The translations under genes were made by a program, and so were the position numbers. Of a DNA stretch of 64,000 bases, positions 12,604 to 60,208 are shown piece after piece. Position 1 is the first letter of the stretch, and every line of letters begins with the position of its first letter. The notes beneath the pieces were generated by a model. The model worked only from the letters and a program-made list of their open reading frames with translations, was not told where the DNA came from and ran no database searches. The stretch comes from an uncultured bacterium (lineage in GTDB: Bacteria; Desulfobacterota; Desulfobaccia; Desulfobaccales; 0-14-0-80-60-11): assembly GCA_937943575.1 (NCBI GenBank), contig CALEAV010000002.1, forward strand, positions 1 through 64,000, read 5' to 3'.

Positions 12604-12619
12604 AATGCGGGGAAACGCC

Positions 12620-13672
12620 ATGACGGAACAGGCATACAAGCCGCTGATGGAGCAGGTGCGGGCGGCGGGGTGAGCTGCCAAGCTTCCTCCCGGGTTGTTG
12701 GAGGAAATCCTGGCAAGCCTGCCCCGCCGGGCCCACCCGGATCTGCTCGTGGGGCTGGAGACCGCGGATGATGCGGGGGTCTACCGGCTGACGCCGGAGA
12801 TCGCCCTCATCCAGACGGTGGATTTTTTCACCCCGGTGGTGAACGACCCCTTCACCTTCGGGCAGATCGCTGCGGCCAATGCCTTAAGCGACGTCTTCGC
12901 CATGGGCGGGCGGCCGCTGACGGCCATGAACATCGTCTGCTACCCCAGCGCCACGGTGCCCAAGGAGGTGCTGAAAGACATCCTGGCCGGGGGGCTGGAC
13001 AAGATCCACGAGGCCGGGGCGCTTCTGGTGGGCGGCCACAGCGTGGATGACACCGAGCTCAAGTACGGGCTGGCGGTGACGGGAGTGGTGCACCCGGAGC
13101 GGGTCCTCACCAACGCCGGGGCCCGCCCCGGGGATGTGCTGCTGCTTACCAAGCCGGTGGGCACGGGCATCATCGCCACGGCCATGAAAGGCCGCCTGGC
13201 CTCCCCCGAGGCCGAGGCCGGGGCGGTGGCGGTGATGACCGCCCTCAACCGCCTCCCCGAGGAGGCCCTGGCCCCCGGCGCGGTCCACGGCCTCACGGAT
13301 ATCACCGGCTTCGGGCTTCTGGGTCATGCCCTGGAGATGGCGGTGGCCAGCCGGGTGGAGCTGACCCTTTTTGCCGGCCGGGTGCCGCTCCTCCCCGGGG
13401 CCTACGATTACGCCGCCATGGGGCTGGTGCCGGCCGGGAGCTTTGCCAACCGCAATTTCTGCGCCAAAAGTCTCATGGTGGACCCCGGGGTGGACCCGGT
13501 GCTCCTGGATCTTCTGGCCGACGCCCAGACCAACGGCGGCCTCCTCCTCGCCGCGGCCCCGGAGGCGGCCGACGCCCTCCTCACCGCCCTCCACCGGGAG
13601 GGCTTCCCCCACGCCGCCCTGATCGGCGAGGTCACCGCCGCCGGCCCCGGCTGCATCCGCCTGGCGCCGTAA
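12620..13672 (+). CDS. selD: Selenophosphate synthetase, itself a selenoprotein (in-frame UGA = Sec18)
   Basis: ATP-dependent synthesis of selenophosphate from selenide, the Se donor for Sec-tRNA. From ATG 12620 the frame reads 17 codons, a TGA at 12671-12673, then continues without interruption to 13672: 350 aa including Sec, the normal SelD length. The UGA falls at the family's active-site position: Sec18-Ala-Ala-Lys21 corresponds to Cys17-x-x-Lys20 of E. coli SelD. Downstream are ADDAGVY, the glycine-rich VDFFTPVVNDPFTFGQIAAANALSD Mg-ATP segment, VGGHSVDD, TDITGFGLLGH and the C-terminal NGGLLLA. A naive start at TTG 12695 would remove the catalytic residues. A SECIS-like hairpin follows the UGA immediately. 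Sec incorporation itself is inferred. Confidence 0.93.
12677..12714 (+). promoter_or_regulatory. Bacterial SECIS element in selD
   Basis: Hairpin just 3' of the UGA: lower stem GCCA (12677-12680)/TGGC (12711-12714), internal loop, upper stem TTCCTCC (12684-12690)/GGAGGAA (12700-12706), apical loop of nine bases containing GGGTTGT (12691-12699). The loop starts 17 nt after the UGA and has a GGUU-type sequence as in known bacterial SECIS loops read by SelB. Confidence 0.75.
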
Positions 13673-31472: not shown

Positions 31473-31540
31473 GCACCCAGCTTCTTGGTCCTTAAATTCA
31501 TGCCGGGCGTCCACTATACCGCGTAGCGACGCCGGCCGGT

Positions 31541-31701
31541 GTTCGGGCAGGTCTTCTGACTCCCGGATCCTCCTCCCCCTGCGCCTTCCCATCCCCTGAA
31601 GGTGGACAGTGGCATGCTGCAGGGTTCGTCCCCGGTCACAGCGGCGGGACCGTGCCGGACTTGCACCGGCTTCCCTATTATGCCCTATGTGGGCACCCGA
31701 A
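31541..31701 (-). promoter_or_regulatory. Cobalamin (B12) riboswitch
   Basis: Minus strand shows the class hallmarks: closing stem GTTCGGG (31701-31695) / CCCGAAC (31547-31541), AGGGAAGCCGGTGCAAGTCC core with CGGCACGGTCCCGCCGCTGTGA, and the B12 box GCCACTG (31613-31607), then GGGAGTCAGAAGACC before the closing strand. With the downstream terminator it should lower cbiK transcription when cobalamin is plentiful. Confidence 0.93.
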
Positions 31702-31713
31702 CGATGTGACACC

Positions 31714-31742
31714 ACAATATCTGGAGTGTGGCCCCTTGTCAA
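31714..31742 (-). promoter_or_regulatory. Sigma70-type promoter of the riboswitch-cbiK transcript
   Basis: TTGACA (31742-31737), 17-nt spacer, TATTGT (31719-31714) on the minus strand; the start point would fall at about 31707, just before the aptamer. Confidence 0.75.
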
Positions 31743-55653: not shown

Positions 55654-57093
55654 ATGAGCGAGGCGGTGGATTCCCGGCCCCTGACCTGGGCCGACGGGCT
55701 CAAGCTGGAAAACGTGGGCCGCGAAGTGCGCGTGCCGGCGGGGACCCTGGTGGTCAAACAGGGGGAGCCGCCCCAGTGCTTCTACGTGGTGGTCAGCGGC
55801 CGCCTGGAGGTCTTCCGGGAGACCGCCGAGGGCATCCGCACCCACCTCACCGACCTGGGGCCGGGGGATTATTTCGGGGAGGTGGCCCTGGTCACCGGTC
55901 AGCCCCGCACCGCCTCGGTGGCCGCCCGGGAGGACGCGGTGCTCCTGGAGATCACCAAGGACGAGTTCGACCACGTCCTGGACCACAACCCCCGGCTGGC
56001 CCGGCACATCATCCAGCAGCTCAGCCATTGGCTGGTGCAGGGCGACGGCCGCCTGGAGCGGGAGGTGGTGCATCAGGCCAAGCTGAGGCAGATCTCCTGG
56101 TTCGACTACCTCCTCCTGCTGGGCCTGAGCCTGGTGCTGGCGCTGGTCTTCAATACCTACAACGACAACCAGATCCCCCTGGTGCACGGCTGGGGGGAGA
56201 AGCTTCAGATCACGGAGATCAGCCCCACCCGGGCCCTGGAGCTGCACCGCCGCCAGGCGGCGGTCTTTGTGGACGCCCGCAAGGCCAACTTCTTTGACCA
56301 GCGCCACATTCAGGGGGCCGTGAATCTGCCGCGCCTCTATTTTGACCTCCAGTACCCCATGTTCCGCTTCATTCTGGAGCAGATGGGCTGGCAGGACAAA
56401 CCCCTCATCGTCTACGGGGGGGGCTTCAGCCGCCGCTTCGACCACGAGCTGGCAAACCTGCTCCAGGAAAAGGACCATGGCCAGGTCCTGGTGCTGGGGG
56501 GGCACTACGCCGCCTGGGAGAAGCTCTTCCCGGTGACGGAGAAGGCGGCGGCGCCGCCCCCGGCCATGCCCCTGGGGATTCCGGGGCTCATCGAGTGGCT
56601 GCCGGTGGGCTTTCTGGTCCTGCTGCTCATTCCGCCGGTCCGGCGCAGCCCCCACCTGGCCATGGCCGGCCGCCTGGTCCTGGGGGTGATCTTCATCCAG
56701 TTCGCCCTGAGCAAGATCATGCGCCCCGGGGTCTTTGCCCTCAACGTGGTGGAGTACGGCCTCATGCCGCCCTGGGGGGTGAATCTGTGGGCCCTGTTTC
56801 TGCCCTGGGCGGAGCTGGTCTGCGGGCTCTTTCTCATTCTGGGCATCCGCACCCGGGCGGCGGCCACCCTCATCGGCGGGATGAACCTGATTTTCATCAT
56901 CGGCCTGGTGAACGCCCTGCTCATGGGCCTCCCCATCAACTGCGGCTGCGTGGGGGAGGTGGGGGAGCCCGTCAACTGGTGGAAGGTGACCAAAAACGCC
57001 GCCATGCTCCTCATGGCCGGACAGATTTATCTCTATGACCGTTTCCTGGTCCTGGACCGGGGCGGCTTCATCTGGCGGGAACGGGAGATATGA
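55654..57093 (+). CDS. Cyclic-nucleotide-binding / rhodanese-like / MauE(DoxX) membrane fusion
   Basis: 479 aa. Residues ~15-135: cNMP-binding jelly roll (VPAGTLVVKQGEPPQCFYVVVSGRLEVF, PGDYFGEVALVTGQPRTASVAA). ~150-168: one helix. ~180-300: rhodanese-like fold (AVFVDARKANFFDQRHIQGAVNLPR, LIVYGGGFSRRFDHELAN); the active-site Cys position is replaced (YGGGFSRR), so sulfur transfer is not expected. ~310-470: four-helix MauE/DoxX-type domain with NCGCVGEVGEP (paired Cys in CGC, as in MauE). MauE is tied to disulfide formation in methylamine dehydrogenase maturation. Head of an operon ending with the Sec glutaredoxin-like gene; its stop overlaps the next ATG by 4 nt. Confidence 0.85.
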   Translation: MSEAVDSRPLTWADGLKLENVGREVRVPAGTLVVKQGEPPQCFYVVVSGRLEVFRETAEGIRTHLTDLGPGDYFGEVALVTGQPRTASVAAREDAVLLEITKDEFDHVLDHNPRLARHIIQQLSHWLVQGDGRLEREVVHQAKLRQISWFDYLLLLGLSLVLALVFNTYNDNQIPLVHGWGEKLQITEISPTRALELHRRQAAVFVDARKANFFDQRHIQGAVNLPRLYFDLQYPMFRFILEQMGWQDKPLIVYGGGFSRRFDHELANLLQEKDHGQVLVLGGHYAAWEKLFPVTEKAAAPPPAMPLGIPGLIEWLPVGFLVLLLIPPVRRSPHLAMAGRLVLGVIFIQFALSKIMRPGVFALNVVEYGLMPPWGVNLWALFLPWAELVCGLFLILGIRTRAAATLIGGMNLIFIIGLVNALLMGLPINCGCVGEVGEPVNWWKVTKNAAMLLMAGQIYLYDRFLVLDRGGFIWREREI

Positions 57094-57467
57094 CTTACCG
57101 GACGGTGCCCTGGGCTCTGGCGCTCTGGGCGTTGGTCTTTGCGGCCGGCCTGGGATGCGGGGAGGCCCGGGCCCCCTTTGCCGGCACCTATCGCTCCGAG
57201 CTGCCTTACGGCGGCAGGGGGCATGTGGAGCTGACCCTGAAGGAAGACGGCGAGGGGCTGTGGAAATGGGAGGAGGTCTCCCTGAGGTTCAAGTGGCGGG
57301 TGGACAAGGGGCAGATCTGGCTCTATACCCGGGAGGGGGGGATCATCATCGCCACCCCCAGTGACGAGGGCCGCCGCCTCAACCTGGACATGAGCGGCTC
57401 CTGGCACCCCAGCTGCCCGGTGGAGCACTGCCTTACTTTTCAGCGAGTGACGGGAGGTGCCCGATGA
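57090..57467 (+). CDS. Small predicted lipoprotein
   Basis: 125 aa. Signal with lipobox-like FAAGLGC (C23) and a compact beta-rich mature domain GTYRSELPYGGRGHVELTLKEDGEGLWKWEEVSLRFKW...CLTFQRV. Two more Cys near the end (SCPVEHC). Function unrecognised. Overlaps the upstream stop (ATGA) and the downstream ATG by four bases. Confidence 0.7.
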   Translation: MTYRTVPWALALWALVFAAGLGCGEARAPFAGTYRSELPYGGRGHVELTLKEDGEGLWKWEEVSLRFKWRVDKGQIWLYTREGGIIIATPSDEGRRLNLDMSGSWHPSCPVEHCLTFQRVTGGAR

Positions 57468-58681
57468 GGCCTCAGTGGCGTCTGGGCCTGGTGGCCGTGG
57501 CCCTGACGGGGCTCCTCGGCCAGCCCGTCCCGGGACAGGCGGCGCCGACCCGGCAGGCGGTGGAGGTGCGCCAGGTGGGGCTCAGCCGGGTGGGCGGCCA
57601 GACCCTCCTCACCGTGGTGTTGACCCGTCCGGCCGCCCCCCGCATCACCCCGGAGGACCGGGGTGGCCAGCCCCGGCTGGTGGTGGAATTCCCCCAGGCC
57701 CGGGCCAGGCGCCTGCCAGGCACTCTGGCGGGGGATGAGGTTTTGGTCTCGAGGGTCCTGACCCGGGTGGGGCCTGGCGGCAGCGGGGTGACCATCACCC
57801 TGGAGCTGGTGCCGGACCGGCCCTACACCTGGTGGCGCCAGTCCCGGCCCGGGAGCGGCCAGCAGGCCCTGTTCGTGGTGGGCCTGCGCCCGGCCGGGGC
57901 AACCCCGGCCCCGCCCACCGCCCGCCCGGCGCCCCTGGTGCCGCCCCCGCCCCCGGCGCCGCACCGGGCCCAGATGGCGCCGCTGCCGGAGGAGCCGGAG
58001 GAGCTGGAGGAGGAACCCCCCGCGGGCCGGGAATGGCAGGCGCCACCGCCCTCCGCTTATCCCGGGAGCCCCCGGGAGCGGGCCCGGGGGGATTTTGCCG
58101 AACTGCGCCGCCTGGCGCCCCAGGGGCAGGGGGTCTGGCAGTACCTGGAGAGGAGCGGCTGGCGGGTGAGCAGCGTCAAGGATTATGACCGCCCCGGGGT
58201 GCGGGCCAGCCGGGCCTTCACCCTCACTCACCCCTCCTACCCCGAGGTGGAGGTGAATGTGGTGCATCTGCCGGGGACTGCCGCCGGCACCCCCAACATC
58301 ACCTTGCTGGATCTGTCCTTCAACCGGCTTACCAGCGCCCCGGCGGTGAAGTACCGGGAGATGCGCACCTGGAGCTTCGCCAAAATCCGGCAGCAGTTTG
58401 AGGACATCGGGGATTTCTTCGACGACGCCCTCAAGCCCCTGCGGGTGGACCTCCGGAAAGAGTGCCAGAGCCTGGCGCTGCGCTACGCCCCCCTCATCCA
58501 GGAGTTTGTCCGCCAGGTGGTGCCCCGGGATCCCAGGGCGCCGGAGACCGTCATGAACCACATCAAGGCCAAGGTGAGCCTTCGGTTTGAGGGGGTGCAA
58601 TATACCATCAGCGAAGAGCCGCTCCTCATCCTCAACCTGGTGGACTTTCTCTACCTGAGGACCTATTACGTGGGCGGCTGA
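57464..58681 (+). CDS. AMIN-domain exported protein
   Basis: 405 aa with signal peptide (1-27, GQAAPT). An AMIN-like beta domain (about 33-130, LTVVLTRPAAPRITPEDRGGQPRLVVEFPQARAR), a Pro-rich linker (about 145-200), and a C-terminal domain of about 200 residues (KYREMRTWSFAKIRQQFEDIGDFFDDALKPLRVDL) that I do not recognise. AMIN domains target periplasmic proteins to the envelope. Located 10 nt before the Sec glutaredoxin-like ATG; same operon. Confidence 0.72.
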   Translation: MRPQWRLGLVAVALTGLLGQPVPGQAAPTRQAVEVRQVGLSRVGGQTLLTVVLTRPAAPRITPEDRGGQPRLVVEFPQARARRLPGTLAGDEVLVSRVLTRVGPGGSGVTITLELVPDRPYTWWRQSRPGSGQQALFVVGLRPAGATPAPPTARPAPLVPPPPPAPHRAQMAPLPEEPEELEEEPPAGREWQAPPPSAYPGSPRERARGDFAELRRLAPQGQGVWQYLERSGWRVSSVKDYDRPGVRASRAFTLTHPSYPEVEVNVVHLPGTAAGTPNITLLDLSFNRLTSAPAVKYREMRTWSFAKIRQQFEDIGDFFDDALKPLRVDLRKECQSLALRYAPLIQEFVRQVVPRDPRAPETVMNHIKAKVSLRFEGVQYTISEEPLLILNLVDFLYLRTYYVGG

Positions 58682-58691
58682 GGAGGATGAG

Positions 58692-58907
58692 ATGGCGAAG
58701 GAGATCGTGATCTACGGCAAGGCCAGTTGACCCTTCACCCTGCGGGCCCGGGAGGCCAAGACGCAGGCGGGCTATCAGGTGGATTATCGGGACGTCAAGG
58801 AGGAGCCCAAATATCTGGAGGAGATGCTGCGCCTCAGCCGGGGGGTGCGCAAGGTGCCGGTCCTGGTGGAGGGCGGCCAGGTGAGCATCGGCTTCGGGGG
58901 CACCTGA
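58692..58907 (+). CDS. Selenocysteine glutaredoxin-like protein (UXX-type), UGA = Sec13
   Basis: 71 aa thioredoxin-fold redox protein. From ATG 58692 (AGGAGG 6 nt upstream): MAKEIVIYGKAS then TGA (58728-58730) then PFTLRAREAKTQAG, running on to TGA 58905-58907. The UGA sits where glutaredoxins have the first Cys of the active site: Sec-Pro-Phe-Thr after YGKAS, followed by the family's KVPVLVEGGQVSIGFGG (cis-Pro VP, and GxxxxGFGG tail). This fits the UXX-type glutaredoxin-like selenoprotein group. A SECIS-like hairpin starts 9 nt after the UGA. Resolving-Cys is absent (Thr), so a glutathione or partner thiol is needed. Read as normal code, the gene is missed. Confidence 0.88.
58739..58767 (+). 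promoter_or_regulatory. Bacterial SECIS element in the Sec glutaredoxin-like gene
   Basis: CCTGCG (58739-58744) / CGCAGG (58762-58767) with inner GGCC (58745-58748) / GGCC (58754-58757), loop CGGGA and a four-base 3' bulge AAGA. The loop begins 18 nt after the UGA, nearly the same distance as in selD. Confidence 0.65.
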
Positions 58908-59839
58908 GGGGTGTAAGGAGGGCCCCCTGGGAGCGGGCTCGGTGGGGGCGGGGCCGGCCGGCAGCGGCGGGTCCCGCCCCTTTTTGCTGTCTTGGGCTCA
59001 GGCCTCCCCGGCACCGGTCCCGGGTGAAAAATCTCCCACTTTTTTCATTTCGGGCCCCCCACGGCGCCTCGTCCTTGCCACCGCCGGGCGGTTTGGATGG
59101 CTAATCCATGAGAATTGCGTTTAATTTTTCCCGGGCCGGGGGCGGGGGGCAGGGCGGGCCGCCTCTCTGATCCTTACCCCACTCCTGCGGCCAACTCCGG
59201 CAGATTTTTCCACTTAGGCGCCTTATTCAGCTTGAAATCAGCATGAAAATGGTTAATTTGTCCCACTTCCTTCAAAAAGGAGGGAGGTTTTTCTTTATAT
59301 AATCTATTAAGATAATGAAATTATTAGATTTTATACATTCCCAGGGGTTTTGTCAGTGAAAAAGGTTTTATGGCTTTTTTTTATCCCACTTTATCCGATT
59401 TTTTTCCTGGTATTTCTCTTTTTTAATCCACTTTATCGGTGATTTTCCCCTCTTCCCCAAGCTTTCCCCTTCTTGTTAATTTGGGCACAATAGCAATTAT
59501 AAAGAATTTACCAAATATTTCAAGTAATTATAAATTTTTTGAAAAAAATTTCTTGACAGCCTCTCCGCCGTGGTTTACTAATCAGAGCCATCAGACAGCC
59601 ACCGACAGACATTCGAACCTCAACTCCCACGGGATGGCGGTGACAGCCGGTTGAGGCTGGGTCCCCACCTCTCCTCTTCTCCCGAACCCAGATACGTACC
59701 GGGAGGGGACCCGGGCTGCACTTTGGGGGAGCCCAAAACCCGGCTGCCAACCAGGGCAAGGAGGCCCGGGGCTCCCCGGCAGTCACGCCCGCCGCGTCCC
59801 CCATCCTGCCGACATCCAGCAGCGACAAGAGAGGCGATC
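58908..59839. other. Long intergenic region with AT-rich core
   Basis: About 930 nt without a convincing gene. 59200-59570 is strikingly AT-rich against GC-rich surroundings. It contains two copies of CCACTTTATC[C/G]G at 59386-59397 and 59428-59439 (42 nt apart) and TTGACA at 59553-59558 with a weak -10 (TACTAA at 17 nt). It may be a regulatory or protein-binding region for the 3D-domain gene at 59840. Confidence 0.4.
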
Positions 59840-60208
59840 ATGAAAAAAACGGCGATCCTGTGCCTGGTGTCTGTGGGGATGTTCTTCTTCCCCCGCCCCA
59901 CCCTCAGCGTCAGTATGGCCATTGTCACGGTCACCGCCTACTCCTACAACGGCGGCGCCTCCCCTCACGGGATCACGGCCTCCGGCAAAAGGGTGAAAGA
60001 GGGCATGGTGGCGGTGAGCCGGGATGTGGAGCGCACCCTCAATCTGGCCTTCGGCGACCGGGTGCTGCTCCACGGGCTGGGGGTCTATGAATACCAGGAC
60101 CGCATGGCCTCCCGCATGCGCAAGAAGGTGGATGTCTTCCTGAACAGCGACCGGAAGGCCCGCCGTTTCGGGGTGAAGCGGCAGGTGGTCCTGGTCAAGC
60201 TGGTGTGA
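59840..60208 (+). CDS. 3D (Asp-Asp-Asp) domain protein, exported
   Basis: 122 aa. Signal peptide (1-25, SVS), then the 3D/RlpA-like double-psi beta-barrel: VTAYSYNGGASPHGITASGKRVKEGMVAVSRDVERTLNLAFGDRVLLHGLGVYEYQDRMASRMRKKVDVFLNS, with the conserved Asp residues of this lytic-transglycosylase-like fold. Cell-wall associated. It lies behind the AT-rich region, convergent with efp 11 nt away. Confidence 0.82.
   Translation: MKKTAILCLVSVGMFFFPRPTLSVSMAIVTVTAYSYNGGASPHGITASGKRVKEGMVAVSRDVERTLNLAFGDRVLLHGLGVYEYQDRMASRMRKKVDVFLNSDRKARRFGVKRQVVLVKLV

Follow-up and report, generated by a model that had tools for sequence, protein, structure and literature searches.

A predicted two-selenocysteine glutaredoxin-like gene of UXX-star family 1 closing a conserved gene run in a Desulfobaccales bacterium

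Within the 64,000-nucleotide stretch of DNA analysed here (the window), a small gene predicted to encode a selenocysteine (Sec) protein is complete at 58692–58916 on the plus strand and is the last of a conserved four-gene run. Both the bacterium's own family and its sister family in the order have kept the run, which opens with a 479-residue fusion of cNMP-binding, rhodanese and MauE/DoxX membrane domains (55654–57093, plus strand; Pfam assignments). This is an unusual domain combination. A lipoprotein-like gene (57090–57467, plus strand; 125 residues) and a 405-residue gene (57464–58681, plus strand) follow, with four-base overlaps between neighbouring members of these three; the Sec gene starts 10 nt later. 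The 405-residue protein gave no match in Pfam or NCBIfam; in 14 relatives its gene immediately precedes the Sec gene. The Shine–Dalgarno sequence AGGAGG (58681–58686, plus strand) overlaps the TGA stop of this upstream gene (58679–58681) and lies 5 nt 5' of the ATG at 58692. A terminator-like hairpin with a T run (58966–58983, plus strand), weakly indicated by a consensus match only, marks the end of the run.

The frame starting at ATG 58692 stays open past an in-frame TGA at 58728–58730 (plus strand), located in the motif S-U-P-F-T. These elements had been described in a first-pass annotation made from the letters alone and were confirmed from the sequence. The same annotation had closed the frame after 71 codons at a 'normal stop'; that triplet, TGA 58905–58907 (plus strand), is instead predicted to be a second recoded codon, in the motif GGT-U-G-V-stop, and the frame runs on from it as GGG GTG TAA. 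With both TGA codons read as Sec, the product has the form MAKEIVIYGKAS-U-PFT...GFGGT-U-GV-stop and comprises 74 residues, with Sec at positions 13 and 72 and termination at TAA 58914–58916. The full translation is MAKEIVIYGKASUPFTLRAREAKTQAGYQVDYRDVKEEPKYLEEMLRLSRGVRKVPVLVEGGQVSIGFGGTUGV.

The 74-residue protein was scored against the NCBIfam model NF041114, 'UXX-star selenoprotein family 1', and reached 103.2 bits (curated cut-off 72). A six-frame search of the genome placed the same model at 58704–58913, over model positions 1–70 of 70, with two TGA codons inside the match and 92.6 bits. Both features of the family are present, namely an N-terminal UxxT site (U13-P-F-T) and the U-X-X-stop end from which the family takes its name (U-G-V-TAA). 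The protein therefore resembles the family in whole-length match, number of Sec residues and both motifs, and nothing essential differs; the window copy closes the cNMP–rhodanese–MauE run. Uxx-star families 2 and 3 (NF041211 and NF047338) and the HUGP/GUXX-star fusion (NF045501) have a related glutaredoxin-like domain, and the window protein scored far under their cut-offs (47 against 100, 53 against 97 and 53 against 325 bits, respectively). The region 58692–58916 is thus almost certainly a member of UXX-star selenoprotein family 1 in which both UGAs would be recoded as Sec. The first-pass proposal of a UXX-type, glutaredoxin-like selenoprotein behind an in-frame UGA was borne out in this way, with two Sec residues; its remark that such a gene is invisible when UGA is taken as a stop did not hold, NCBIfam having a specific model for it. 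As a member of a documented double-selenoprotein family, the gene does not represent a discovery of a new kind: it is a new example of a family already catalogued. The analysis supplies the corrected gene end and this placement.

For comparison, NF041114 was searched against 395 genomes of the same phylum, of which 100 gave scores over the cut-off. The alignment contained 104 distinct loci, 94 of them reaching the C-terminal position; these loci are related by descent and are not independent trials, and their divergence is wide (41–92% protein identity to the window protein). Sequence conserved beyond the first UGA, the lack of which had been named beforehand as grounds for abandoning the gene, was present in the relatives. 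Purifying selection acts between the two UGAs, judging from the synonymous/nonsynonymous comparison that had been suggested at the outset: dN was 0.04–0.09 and dS 0.35–0.48 over this interval among three genomes of the same genus.

In the bSECISearch rule, the loop of a bacterial SECIS (bSECIS) lies 16–37 nt from the UGA and has a G among its first two bases. Both window loops fit. SECIS-like hairpin 1 (58739–58767, plus strand) is formed by the helices CCTGCG/CGCAGG and GGCC/GGCC and was identified by folding and comparison; its first helix starts 9 nt after UGA 58728–58730, and its loop, CGGGA (58749–58753), lies 18 nt past it, as the first-pass annotation had described. SECIS-like hairpin 2 (58920–58940, plus strand; covariation and local fold) lies beyond the TAA, with the loop GGG (58929–58931) 21 nt past the second UGA. 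In this G+C-rich DNA neither window hairpin was unusually stable compared with shuffled sequence (z from −0.1 to 0.2; about 0.1 for hairpin 1), and no match to either was found in Rfam. Folding energy alone, which did not set the window hairpins apart from shuffles, was therefore rejected as SECIS evidence; the case rests on comparison, which is also what makes the early description of hairpin 1 convincing.

At the first site, the loop of the best local hairpin was found 18 nt past the UGA in 36 of 87 relatives (four of 174 shuffles). The codons of the hairpin 1 stem-loop core, GCC CGG GAG (Ala-Arg-Glu), did not differ between the 16 sequences of the order, with zero synonymous change in the ungapped codon table that was used. 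The single varying base pair is A-U instead of G-C in the sister family, both of its sides having changed. At the second site, a loop was present 17–20 nt downstream in 63 of 94 relatives, and in 88% the first or second loop base was a G (55% for shuffles). RNAalifold gave one seven-pair helix for 16 sequences, in which four of the seven pairs were changed on both sides; none of 500 shuffles reached the observed percentage paired or the covariation score. This helix lies mostly past the stop codon, so that protein coding does not explain its conservation. A terminator was considered as the source of the hairpin and was set aside, because it could conserve the hairpin itself but not a fixed distance to the UGA or the loop G. 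The comparison supports a conserved hairpin downstream of each UGA as well as the prediction that both UGAs are translated.

If the first UGA only were recoded, UGA 58905 would be a real stop and the protein would have 71 residues. A UGA terminates translation where a good SECIS is lacking, and the window copy of hairpin 2 does have one C-C mismatch in the conserved helix and a more stable alternative fold (58922–58949) competing with it. Against this stand the covarying hairpin at SECIS spacing described above and the pattern of codons around the second site. The next stop lies exactly three codons past the second UGA in 90 of 94 relatives, compared with nine of 422 ordinary long TGA-ending open reading frames in the same loci. 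All 94 have Val or Ile as the residue before this final stop (GTC 26, GTT 24, GTG 22, GTA 10, Ile 12); every Val codon is in use, with the third base free, and the conservation is therefore at the protein level. All 94 relatives have UGA at the second position itself. At the first position 81 of them have UGA and the other 13 have Cys (homologues with Cys in place of Sec had been called for when the gene was first noticed), and these 13 retain UGA at the second. We consider the 71-residue product very improbable. That the frame is open by chance, or is a decayed gene with nonsense mutations, is a notion to which high G+C DNA with its many long spurious frames lends itself; it is refuted by the family score, the purifying selection, the conserved residues and the conserved gene order, and its probability is negligible. 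Just as negligible is a general reassignment of UGA or nonspecific readthrough in place of Sec, for which no supporting point was found: the relatives' loci include the 422 ordinary frames counted above that close with TGA, the residue exchanged for Sec at the first site is Cys and not Trp, and the genome has a full Sec apparatus, comprising tRNA-Sec (73.8 bits) and SelA, SelB and SelD, all over their cut-offs. Sec at both UGAs is a prediction that comparison strongly supports.

The comparative picture obtained in this way, which should be useful in itself, consists of an invariant C-terminal UGA, a SECIS that covaries and lies for the most part outside the coding sequence and, in about half of the members (49 of 90), a UGA as the final stop nine nucleotides past the Sec UGA. 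We tentatively suggest that the C-terminal Sec is the constant element of the family and the N-terminal Sec the varying one, the former being a key catalytic or ligand residue for which a Cys form may not be tolerated; in the members with a UGA stop, one and the same ribosome would decode the first of the paired UGAs as Sec and the next as a stop under the direction of a hairpin located mainly in the 3' untranslated region, which would be a natural test of SECIS spacing.

The structure was predicted with AlphaFold2 using 75 relatives and had a thioredoxin-like fold (mean pLDDT 92) in which residues 72–73 form a short strand. The Pfam Glutaredoxin model PF00462 scored 42.1 bits (gathering threshold 22.9). 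Of the glutaredoxin features claimed in the first-pass annotation, the cis-Pro stands; the GG is not a generic feature and belongs to the GFGGT-U-X-X-stop signature. The fold, the cis-Pro and sequence similarity are in common with glutaredoxin 3 and NrdH redoxin, which differ in having a CXXC dithiol site and no Sec; the window protein, with UPFT and no second Cys, falls outside classical dithiol Grx3 (TIGR02181, 32 bits against a cut-off of 90) and is also under the cut-off of TIGR02194. The top PDB matches were glutaredoxins, including cGrx1 and cGrx2, which we take to be the Clostridium oremlandii proteins named in PMC13188914. With the selenoprotein cGrx1 (PDB entries 7c10/7c12) the glutaredoxin fold is shared at a TM-score of about 0.77. 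cGrx1 has its Sec at the nucleophile position, as in the window protein, and unlike the latter is without a C-terminal Sec. Its motif is UxxC, with a single Sec (table in PMC13188914).

The following scheme is proposed for the gene and its product. SelB and Sec-tRNA would decode UGA 58728 with the aid of the hairpin inside the coding sequence and UGA 58905 with the aid of the hairpin mostly past the stop codon, translation ending two codons on at TAA. U13 would occupy the position of the nucleophilic Cys of glutaredoxins and, having Thr where the second Cys would be (UPFT), act in a monothiol-type manner. U72 may be its partner selenol, either resolving the oxidized intermediate as a diselenide or completing a site of two selenols that would bind a soft metal or metalloid. 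For this order, the conservation of the gene run points to the rhodanese/MauE membrane protein as a possible client, perhaps for electron or sulfane sulfur transfer, and this conserved link provides a first concrete partner candidate. Rhodanese and MauE were found near 15 of 103 loci, among them two distant ones (L114 and L122) with another layout, in which rhodanese and MauE genes precede a UXX-star gene whose C-terminal part is longer. These neighbours are largely those of one order plus the two distant loci, and conclusions drawn from the operon hardly extend to the whole family.

A redox relay between the two selenols is a tentative proposal, in which we place a little less than even confidence. 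The same double recoding could also serve selenols that mainly bind a metal or metalloid such as arsenic or mercury and are not electron carriers. Metal-ligand roles have been suggested for UXX-star Sec (PMC13188914), and ACR3 arsenite transporter genes occur near nine relatives and ArsR-type regulators near five; most relatives, on the other hand, have other neighbours, no arsenic genes were identified among the immediate neighbours of the window gene, and the fold with its cis-Pro is of the glutaredoxin type. Metal or metalloid binding as the main function is a possibility to which we give only slightly less weight than to the redox relay. A metalloid-resistance role for the window gene itself was not retained, its own neighbours giving no support despite the ACR3 and ArsR genes beside some relatives.

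The review PMC13188914 (2026) lists a 'Distant Grx-like protein 1' with the motif UxxT and two Sec residues, which is this family, and credits it to Zhang and Gladyshev (2008). In the passages searched from the main text of the 2008 GOS paper, no entry under this family's name or motif was found. A literature search returned no paper on a selenoprotein with MauE and rhodanese and none on Deltaproteobacteria proteins with two Sec residues.

Several further features were recorded. At loci L112, L114, L121, L122, L123, L125 and L126 the UXX-star gene is a variant in which a SLRGGIPLFGGT-like stretch is inserted 5' of the C-terminal Sec codon; ACR3 arsenite transporter genes and ArsR genes are often its neighbours. 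In the locus comparison the largest 'neighbour cluster' was discarded as antisense-frame noise. A gene for a small conserved protein with a signal-like N-terminus (59651–60208, plus strand) occurs 3' of the Sec gene at 11 loci; the relative of this protein at L066 gave no Pfam match. The window's second selenoprotein gene is selD (12605–13672, plus strand), which has its own in-frame UGA at 12671–12673 (...RAAGUAAK...) and would encode a Sec-containing selenophosphate synthetase. A cobalamin riboswitch was located at 31529–31715 on the minus strand (125 bits), with three more in the genome.
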